Assembly: GCF_964204645.1 (NCBI RefSeq)
Contig: NC_134029.1
Location: 2,861,001 to 2,925,000, forward strand
DNA length: 64,000 bases
Direction: 5' to 3'
DNA from: Tubulanus polymorphus
Lineage: Eukaryota > Nemertea > Palaeonemertea > Tubulaniformes > Tubulanidae
The notes under the pieces were generated by a model. That model saw only the letters and a program-made list of their open reading frames with translations. It was not told where the DNA came from and ran no database searches. Position 1 is the first letter of the stretch. Each line of letters begins with the position of its first letter. Shown piece by piece: positions 580 to 21,199 of this stretch. The position numbers and the translations under genes are program-made.

Positions 580-3500
580 ATGGAAAAACACGCGGGACTT
601 ACAACAAGCTATTCAAAACTGGTAAGTACGACGCTTTTTACGCGTGAAATTTCGGTTTTCAAGTTTTACTTTCATGTTTTAGGTAAAATCATCAGTAAAT
701 TGTCTATAATTCTAGTATAGAAATATACTATAGTCTACAAAGTAAGGTTTATTTAAAGTTTGAATTAAAACGCTTCATTTACAATCAAATTTTGTAAAAT
801 GTACGATTATTCGTGAGTTCAAGCGTACGCGTTTTTAGTTCGACCGCGTGTTGTGTTCGATTACTTTCGGTATTTTCCGCCATTTTCCGTTGAGACTATA
901 ACGGCTTCGTTAACTGATCTTCTTATTCCTCTAATTTACAGCACGTTTTTTTCTGATTTCCTCTCATTATAATTTCATTTCTTTCGCGTGCTTCCAGTGA
1001 AATTAACACGACCTTCCAATAGAAATCAATGAATTAAGGAAATAATGAGCTTCGTTTGAACATGGAAATCTTGACTTATAATAATTAAGGCTCTTCTGAA
1101 TGATCCTCATTAATCAATGATTTTTGTTTTGTAATTCAAAATTTTCACAACAATTCGTAATAACGATAATTCGTTATTCGACTATTGTTTTTGAAACCCT
1201 TTTCGAAAAAAGATCCCATATTTCATAGTGTGAAATATTCATAATTGAGTTATAGATAATACAGATATTTAACAGTTTAGTTAAGACTTGCGTTAAAGGT
1301 GTGTCCGCGATTGTTCCGCTTAATGAACACAAGAATCTGCCAAAGTGTTTGAAGTTTGTTCACCCACACAGAAATCTCCATTCATTCGGTTTAGACTATA
1401 GAATGAGCATAATGACCACACACTAGAATTCAATTCATTATGAAACTGACTTAGTTCTACGCTACAATTAATCGAACTACGCCCAGTTAGCCTCCACGAT
1501 TAGAGGGTGGGAACTTTCAAAAACCTAAATTCGCCTTTTGTCAGTGGCTGTTATTGATTGGAATGCAATGCTAATATCGAATCACTGCCTTGAAATCTCA
1601 ACCGTTTAACCCAAGAATTTAGAGAATCAATCCTACATGAATAGGTTAAAGTAACCGCGTTGACCTGGTATCAGATCAAAAGTGAAGACTGCTAATACTG
1701 AAATACAGCTTACTGAATGAATGAGGAGAGAATCCCACAATGATAATAAAAAGTCCGAAAAAGAAACTCAGGAATTCCTGAGGATGACTATTAGGATATA
1801 GTCGAAACGTTGAAATAAACTACTATCTCGAAGTTTCTTTTTCGGACTTTTTATTATCATTGTGGGATTCTCTCCTCATCGCGTCAACACGGATATAGTG
1901 TTCTACCAATCGTGAACTGAATGAATACTTTCTATTTACAGGTGTTATACATATGTCTCTTACATCTTTCTACATTCATCACATCAACGTCATCACAGAC
2001 GATAGGTAAGCCATATCCGAAAAACATAATATCCTTGATTATCAACGAATATTCTATTGTAGCAAGATAAGATAGTTTTGATGAAATCTCGCATTCGCCA
2101 GGCGGCGCTGCTTTATTAAGTAGAACCTCCCTGCGTACTGCTGATCTATAGTATGTAATCCCTCACATACTCTACAATAAAAAAAAAACTTTCATTGATA
2201 AAAATGCTTCAAAAATAGAAAATAGATATTTGTGAAAAAGGGAAGTAAGAAGCAGTGACAGGAAGTAAGAAGCAGTTACATGAGACCATCCTGATTGGCC
2301 CAAATACACCGTACATCAGCCTATTGTCCAATAAAAAAACACGGCACTTGGATTTTCAAACTGGTTTTTTGCTTCCCATTTTTTCCACCTGTATTCAAAT
2401 ATACCTATAATGAAAGTCATATATATTTTATGCATTATCTCATAGTAACCGATGCCAAGGGTAGAAACATATTCGGAGTAATCGATGAATTTTTGAATGG
2501 TGAACATTATTTTATTGGCAATTATTGCTTGAAGCTTCTCTGTAGCATAGTGCTTACTTTGAGTTCTAGAGCCGCTTTTAAAATCGTAGTGCCTAGCATC
2601 CGCTTCATATGACGCTTATCATATCTCACGCCTGTTTTTTGATTGCATTTATAGATTTCTTGAATTAGGGAAGAATTCGTCTGCTTTGCTTTTCTAACAA
2701 CAGATATCGCGAGACTTCGCTTTACAATGCAACATTAAGATGATATTAACAATTTTGAGCTTGTATTGTTTCAAACAGGATCAGGTGTCGAAGGCATAAA
2801 TATATTTGGGGTTGCAGCTGGTTTGTATTTCATATCGTGATGTGTTTTTGTGTGTAAACTAACTCTCCATTCAATAATGGACACCATACATTTTGGGGTC
2901 TATAATTCAATCTCGTATAAGTGTACCGCGATTAGGGCCCAGTTCCACAAACACAAATTTAACTCCTCGTCGAATTTAATTGAATTGACAAAAAAATTAT
3001 CGATCGAATTGATTTACGAGTTTCTTTTTAAAAAAAGAAGCAAGCATACGTGTAAGTATGACTAACTGATCTTAAAACTAGGGCCAGTCCTATATAACCA
3101 ATCCTACAATCTAAGGCTAGTTAGTGTAAGCTCCTTTGCCTTATTGGGAATCAGCCCTCTGATACCGAAAAGTTTTCTCGGATAAAAACAAATCATAAAG
3201 TTCAATTCCTGACAGTGTATGGCCAAAGATAAGGTAACACTAACCGTAGTTTGCTGTCCGGAGCTGTCCTCAAGTATTGTCGTGTGACTCTTCTACTAAC
3301 TTTTCACATGTATTTCGTGTATATATCATTGTATTTTGTGCGTAATTTCTCTGTAAAATGTAAACAAATAAACATACATGAAATAATTTTTTTTTTGGTA
3401 TTCATATTTAAAACTTAACAATTTCCAAAACTTTATTCTTATTTACATCCGAACGAAATGATGATAACGTATTGATAAGTTGAGTAAAAACATGGTATTT

Positions 3501-21199: not shown

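Follow-up and report, generated by a model that had tools for sequence, protein, structure and literature searches.

The window considered here is a stretch of 64,000 nucleotides (C5:2861001-2925000) lying in an assembly that totals 267.8 Mb in 77 contigs, with 12 above 11 Mb; this assembly is the genome searched throughout, and the three smaller contigs looked at were all below 0.25 Mb. A single plus-strand gene at positions 580-21199 encodes what appears to be a giant collagen anchored in the membrane in type I orientation. GT-AG splicing yields 19 exons joined in a single open frame with no internal stop. The coding length is 15,477 bases including the stop codon, giving a product of 5,158 amino acids, and all 18 introns have GT-AG borders, with sizes from 80 to 1,541 bases. 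The product consists, in order, of a signal-like segment, a head encoded by two exons, 1,556 Gly-X-Y triplets, EGF modules and a single membrane helix, which is followed by a tail of 71 residues (Table 1). That the gene and its order of parts are real is very nearly certain.

Table 1. Parts of the collagen gene and associated candidate features (positions are those of the window)
Feature	Position	Strand	Basis
Exon 1: start codon and N-terminal portion of signal-like segment	580..621	+	GT-AG splicing
Exon 2: hydrophobic core of signal-like segment	1942..2005	+	GT-AG splicing; signal judged by eye
Possible optional mini-exon of 42 nt with phase 1 at both ends, adding 14 residues with frame kept	2779..2820	+	51-nt phase-1 exon at matching place in P3
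Exon 3, 284 nt: head domain, first half	3547..3830	+	Length and phases equal to P1 head exon
Exon 4, 226 nt: head domain, second half	3930..4155	+	Length and phases equal to P1 head exon
Exon 5: Gly-X-Y; helix starts at 4651	4643..6559	+	GT-AG splicing
Exon 6: Gly-X-Y	6707..7282	+	GT-AG splicing
Exon 7: Gly-X-Y	7395..9545	+	GT-AG splicing
Exon 8: Gly-X-Y, 117 nt	9648..9764	+	GT-AG splicing
Exon 9: Gly-X-Y	9851..11488	+	GT-AG splicing
Exon 10: Gly-X-Y, 72 nt	11583..11654	+	GT-AG splicing
Exon 11: Gly-X-Y	11831..14098	+	GT-AG splicing
Exon 12: Gly-X-Y	14196..15023	+	GT-AG splicing
Exon 13: Gly-X-Y	15104..16417	+	GT-AG splicing
Exon 14: Gly-X-Y; sole interruption (Gly-Ile) at 18500-18505	16503..18776	+	GT-AG splicing
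Exon 15: helix end, last triplet ends at 19729	18867..19736	+	GT-AG splicing
Intron 15: retention would give a stop just after the helix (hypothetical secreted form)	19737..19830	+	Reading of intron
Exon 16: six-cysteine EGF and partial four-cysteine module	19831..20070	+	Splicing, cysteine positions, Pfam
Exon 17: six-cysteine EGF module	20192..20317	+	Splicing, cysteine positions, Pfam
Exon 18: truncated four-cysteine EGF, likewise in P1 and P2	20465..20572	+	Splicing, Pfam
Exon 19: stalk, membrane helix (~20912-20983), cytoplasmic tail, stop	20838..21199	+	Splicing, hydrophobicity
Candidate polyadenylation signal AATAAA	21811..21816	+	One of five AATAAA/ATTAAA words in 21201-22200

Glycine is present in every one of the 1,556 triplets of the collagenous region, which amounts to 4,670 residues and is broken by one interruption of two residues (Gly-Ile, residues 4499-4500). 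The initial annotation had described about 1,556 Gly-X-Thr-rich triplets and about 4,670 residues, and an exact recount bears this out: threonine occupies 1,006 of the 1,556 Y positions (64.7%) and proline 77 (4.9%). At X, alanine is found 496 times and proline 43 times (2.8%), and Gly-Pro-Pro occurs only three times. All 11 helix exons start in phase 1 and nine of them have lengths divisible by nine, the other two being those which hold the interruption and the helix end. The computed rod length is 1,335 nm (at 0.286 nm per residue), in agreement with the earlier estimate of about 1.3 micrometres. For annelid cuticle collagens the figures are about 1.5 and 2.4 micrometres in length. At the two ends of the helix (the first 50 and the last 26 triplets) proline is commoner and threonine scarcer than in the middle, as would be expected if the middle was added later. 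A segmental repeat inside the helix was sought as the source of such growth, and weak lag signals alone were found.

Of 94 matches to the codon pattern Thr-Gly-Ala-Thr-Gly-x-Thr-Gly across the 268 Mb, 90 fall within the window gene and four elsewhere; a reversed-pattern control gave none. Among 13 pieces of 10 kb taken at other collagen-like places, no run of at least 12 triplets had threonine at more than 22% of its Y positions, and no second Gly-X-Thr chain turned up in these pieces, in the pattern search or in the genome family search for further collagens, which scored 150 of 425 candidates and may have missed short or unusual chains. The window gene is the only Gly-X-Thr giant found in the 268-Mb genome. 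Since no second chain of this type was found a homotrimer is likely, and three identical chains probably form the rod. Weighing against these claims, the helix and the trimer are both read from composition alone. At C2:14600-15800 and C10:11273000-11274100, simple repeats reading as Gly-x-Arg or Gly-Arg-Glu triplets receive a Pfam collagen score; these are probably not collagen genes.

Threonine also predominates at Y in the collagens of bacteria. According to the excerpted text of PMC8968730, Gram-positive bacterial collagens have threonine at 48.3% of Y positions and proline at 31% of X positions, human fibrillar collagens have proline or hydroxyproline at 33.5% of Y positions, and polar residues are thought to stabilise the bacterial helix via a hydration network. 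The resemblance does not extend to the X position, where the window gene has proline in only 2.8% of triplets, and the window gene is an intron-rich animal gene. In the cuticle collagen of Riftia, glycosylated threonine rather than 4-hydroxyproline is described at the stabilising positions (as given in a citing text and in the title of the reference), and the Thr-at-Y chemistry of the window gene matches this by sequence. With almost no proline available, it is probably threonine at Y that keeps the rod stable. This threonine would replace hydroxyproline, and is most likely O-glycosylated, as reported for Riftia cuticle collagen, or well hydrated, as in the bacterial collagens.

The part of the product following the helix scores above the Pfam cut-offs for EGF_CA, FXa_inhibition and cEGF. 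Counted by eye from the cysteine positions, two of its EGF modules have six cysteines and two have four. Beyond them lies one strongly hydrophobic segment, at residues ~5064-5087, which ends in WRWRR. No COLFI was listed among the Pfam domains of the window gene's head and tail, nor in its paralogues P1 and P2 (below) as scanned. With a signal-like segment at the N-terminus and a C-terminal hydrophobic segment backed by basic residues, the product is apparently a type I membrane protein. This order of segments agrees with the contrast drawn in the initial annotation between a type I product and the type II membrane collagens, for which the mammalian side is provided by the available portion of PMC4678570. 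There the MACITs (types XIII, XXIII and XXV, and COL-99 of C. elegans) are described as type II proteins that have a cysteine motif at the C-terminus and three collagenous domains with non-collagenous stretches between them, and as not having been identified in annelids or molluscs. The MACITs and the window gene are alike in having a single membrane helix and a collagenous ectodomain. The MACITs, however, are of type II with short helices broken into several domains, whereas the window product is of type I by segment order, with one interruption in 1,556 triplets.

A cluster on the same chromosome (C5), approximately 6.3 Mb from the window gene, holds two short paralogues of like architecture, P1 and P2. 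P1 lies on the minus strand with its stop codon at C5:9174451 and a provisional 5' end; it comprises heads and 49 triplets, after which come three EGF modules, the membrane helix and the tail. P2 (C5:9201309-9199124), with six exons encoding 396 residues, begins with a signal-like segment and has no head; its 49 triplets are likewise followed by three EGF modules, membrane helix and tail. P3 (C5:9196285-9195348) is another head-bearing start, which could represent either the 5' end of P1 or a separate gene. Eight two-exon heads, four of them nearly alike, stand in tandem before the P1 collagen (C5:9174451-9186237; loci L057, L059 and L060) and are probably part of one gene with it. Common to P1, P2 and the window gene are a collagen rod followed by phase-1 EGF exons, a truncated EGF and one exon for stalk, membrane helix and tail. 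The truncated last EGF has four cysteines in all three (by eye), the membrane exon starts in phase 1 in all three, and the Pfam modules are of the same kinds. When the window tail was compared with P1 and with P2, none of 1,000 cysteine-preserving shuffles scored as high in either case, and the same result (0/1,000 each) was obtained with the stalk, transmembrane (TM) segment and tail alone; a point on the other side is that the shuffles lose hydrophobic clustering, which makes the latter figure generous. There is little doubt that the window gene belongs with P1 and P2 to a head-collagen-EGF-TM family, and by its shared architecture it ranks as a giant among otherwise short membrane collagens, apparently of type I. 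The presence of a membrane exon in both paralogues suggests that anchoring matters.

These comparisons also bear on whether the gene is an artefact of misassembly or of falsely joining two adjoining genes, a concern raised by the repetitive nature of the locus and by a gene model drawn from genomic sequence alone. No exact direct repeat within the helix region (4643-19736; 15 kb) is longer than 25 bp and the copies are distinct, making repeat-driven collapse or false joining unlikely. Phase is kept at the splice sites throughout, and introns 14 to 18, which link the helix, EGF and membrane exons, are short (90, 94, 121, 147 and 265 nt). Furthermore, the collagen-EGF-TM order recurs in two paralogues with similar tails, which answers the objection that the helix and the EGF-TM exons might be separate genes. 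An artefact of this kind is very improbable, and the earlier proposal of one gene running from signal to tail is upheld, with the case for anchoring strengthened.

The head of the window product comprises approximately 170 residues and no cysteine. It has no Pfam match, sequence searches of the PDB with the head or with a family profile were not significant (best E 1.7 and 1), and a search of the genome with the head at E up to 1 returned its own two exons only. A gene approximately 12 kb upstream of the window carries a domain with the motif W-x-F-Y-R...V-W-R-P...G-D-V-I-G (for example at C5:2848198-2848509, locus L033). A genome search for this unnamed WxxYR/VWRP/GDVIG domain at E up to 0.01 gives 27 matches, among them the upstream copy itself and one copy with internal stops. 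The upstream domain has no Pfam match, and the only Pfam matches among 23 family members are to PKD, in two of them (best E 0.003), and to DUF7323, in a single member. The P1 head adjoining the collagen matches a profile constructed from 19 family places (E ~2e-11, in a search of three sequences). In the tandem heads of P1 and the head of P3 an intron lies inside the domain, with phases 1-0-1 where the sites are readable; several sites are possible in some exons, and in the second exons one acceptor and two phase-1 donors were not picked up by the script, the acceptor then being seen by eye. The window head likewise occupies two exons before the collagen with phases 1-0-1, and its 284 and 226 nt equal the two exon lengths of the collagen-adjoining P1 head. 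Scored with the largest profile, built from the domain family and the cluster heads, the window head is equalled by eight of 20,000 shuffles. Among 955 reading-frame pieces from the examined loci (window included), a control reused across the profile tests, 24 reach its score with this profile, 23 of them from family loci and one from the upstream locus L031, which holds the domain.

Several results weigh against this kinship. In gapless alignment to the P1 head the window head does not stand out from shuffles (10,384 of 20,000 reach its score), Smith-Waterman scores as high were given by 355 of 2,000 shuffles, and the corresponding figure for hhalign is 96 of 400. A two-sequence profile was matched by 909 of 5,000 shuffles (18%), and other profiles by 0.2 to 3% (14/2,000, 24/2,000, 51/5,000, 71/5,000, 20/5,000, 146/5,000, 37/5,000 and 37/20,000). 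With profiles that preceded the largest one, unrelated pieces also equalled the window head: 35 of the 955 pieces did so with one profile (23 of which carry the domain), and 50 and 35 with two others. The largest profile, which has the best figure, was also built last, after the other results had been seen. Taken with the exon lengths and phases, it is nevertheless highly probable, if not proven, that the window head is a divergent member of the unnamed family. The initial annotation described this head as novel; its novelty is reduced, since it is probably a divergent copy of a domain with 27 matches in the same genome.

An expanded head family invites the view that the protein is a cell-surface receptor for adhesion or recognition, the rod acting as a spacer which presents a ligand-binding head far from the cell. 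The eight tandem heads before the P1 collagen and the 27 genome matches of the domain recall receptor and immune families, and a short tail is present. However, the head of the window gene is single and divergent, the P2 model has none, and a spacer of 1.3 micrometres is far above usual needs. A receptor role is accordingly improbable.

The initial annotation also linked the gene to the annelid cuticle. A homeodomain query gave 23 matches in the genome, ten of which lie on one strand at C6:5318231-5634586 (316 kb). Nine of these ten were read and, by their signatures, we take them to be Post2, Lox2, Lox4, Antp, Lox5, Scr, Hox4, Hox3 and Hox2. The Lox5 homeodomain on C6 is followed by KLNGP, in place of the KLTGP expected of a Lox5 tail. 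Lox2, Lox4 and Lox5 are lophotrochozoan genes according to the available part of a review, and Lingula has been reported to be without Lox2 and Lox4; if the gene names given here hold, the genome does not belong to Lingula. A search of the assembly for COX1 found no match. The annelid haemoglobin-linker domain (PF16915) and the mollusc haemocyanin domain (PF14830) each had no match in the genome; these searches were made without a positive control and exclude neither annelids nor molluscs. The Hox cluster therefore speaks for a lophotrochozoan and not for an annelid in particular.

Published annelid collagens offer a partial parallel. In the portions of the sources available, the giant collagens of alvinellids and Eisenia are described as proline-rich, with up to 5,722 repeats, and the longest collagens of three siboglinids including Riftia have 684-840 repeats. 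Annelid giants combine a very long helix with non-collagen end domains, as does the window gene, and no membrane anchor is mentioned for them in these portions. Their composition differs, with proline at 33-40% of X and 22-33% of Y positions in alvinellids and the earthworm against 2.8% and 4.9% in the window gene. Some annelid families have a cuticle without layers of collagen fibres. In view of the Hox evidence and of these proline-rich giants, the link to the annelid cuticle did not find support and is unproven.

The closest described kin by architecture appear to be the EGF-domain collagens of the Lingula shell. The available text of PMC4595640 (2015) describes collagens with EGF, EGF_CA and FXa_inhibition domains, some of them tandem-duplicated, apart from the COLFI fibrillar collagens. 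By description, which is the basis of the comparison, these have the same kinds of modules as the window gene, P1 and P2, with no COLFI listed. The word "transmembrane" is absent from the main text of that paper, in which the three words beginning "membrane" belong to other contexts; nor does the available text mention a head domain or a Gly-X-Thr giant, unlike what is found in the window gene. Among the matches listed from the open-licence literature, as far as their text was available, no type I membrane collagen and no Gly-X-Thr cuticle collagen gene is named.

As they are reported from the shell proteome (PMC4595640, available text), the Lingula EGF-domain collagens lie outside the cell. 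This lends some weight to the idea that the window gene encodes a cuticle- or matrix-type collagen which is made as a membrane precursor and works as a secreted polymer, either after cleavage of the stalk or through an isoform retaining intron 15, since retention of this intron would stop the protein right behind the helix. On the other hand, the membrane exon is kept in both paralogues and a protease site in the stalk is hypothetical. The lineage evidence is lophotrochozoan only, and the giant collagens of the alvinellids and the earthworm are rich in proline, with those of the three siboglinids much shorter. A secreted polymer seems unlikely on this evidence, if less so than a receptor.

The best explanation as a whole, which we favour with modest confidence, is that of a giant single-pass type I membrane collagen, grown from a short rod and acting in an apical coat. 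Such a protein would run from a signal peptide through one or more head domains, a collagen rod and an EGF stalk to a membrane helix with a short tail. Its rod probably began at about 49 triplets (42 nm) in the ancestor and grew approximately 32-fold, by the spread of Gly-X-Thr, to about 1.3 micrometres. The N-terminus would enter the secretory path with the C-terminal helix keeping the protein anchored, and three like chains would wind into a rod. The EGF stalk would raise this rod off the membrane, with the head at its far end. Standing off the epithelial surface, the rod may build or tether a thick apical coat, into which cleavage of the stalk could release it. Its great length would fit best with a place in an apical coat or cuticle, whether the rod is tethered there or shed. 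For the role in an apical coat taken by itself, the chances are about even.

It is attractive to consider a lophotrochozoan epithelium bearing a brush of tethered collagen rods, each more than 1 micrometre long, relying on glycosylated threonine in place of hydroxyproline, and derived from a 42-nm membrane collagen that lengthened 32-fold. This would be a new way to build or anchor a coat or cuticle, and would place a type I class beside the type II MACITs; we regard this fuller picture as tentative, somewhat short of an even chance. If true, lophotrochozoans would have their own sort of membrane collagen, in the form of a type I family that includes a giant. The window gene would then be a case in which to study a stable animal helix with almost no proline, and an example of a giant collagen growing from an ancestor of about 49 triplets, short relatives of which survive in the same genome. 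It would also pose a problem of secretion, in that a rod of 1.3 micrometres must exit the cell while its chain is still anchored.

Upstream of the window, a minus-strand gene at C5 ~2851800-2859400 (L032) lies head to head with the collagen gene and contains thrombospondin-like pieces, TSP_3 scoring above the Pfam cut-off and EGF-like pieces below it. This neighbour would be a second gene of matrix type; its presence accords with a matrix role for the collagen but proves nothing. Within intron 2 of the collagen gene, at ~1725-1880, a long inverted repeat around AATCCCACAATGATAATAAAAAGTCCGAAAAAGAAAC was noticed by eye and is perhaps a small mobile element. Elsewhere in the window, an AGAGGG array of 18.7 copies (97% alike) occupies positions 49394-49506. 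On the minus strand, a cysteine-rich repeat (CDCDY..GGCRIS...ACRC.YKG.WTC) at 51176-51709 has no Pfam match at E up to 0.1, and a tandem array at 52117-55842, with units of ~204 bases and a higher order of 429 bases, would by eye code for cysteine-rich EGF-like repeats. Finally, a tetraspan gene of the LHFPL family is present on the plus strand at 59017-59946 (Pfam L_HMGIC_fpl, E 1.7e-57).

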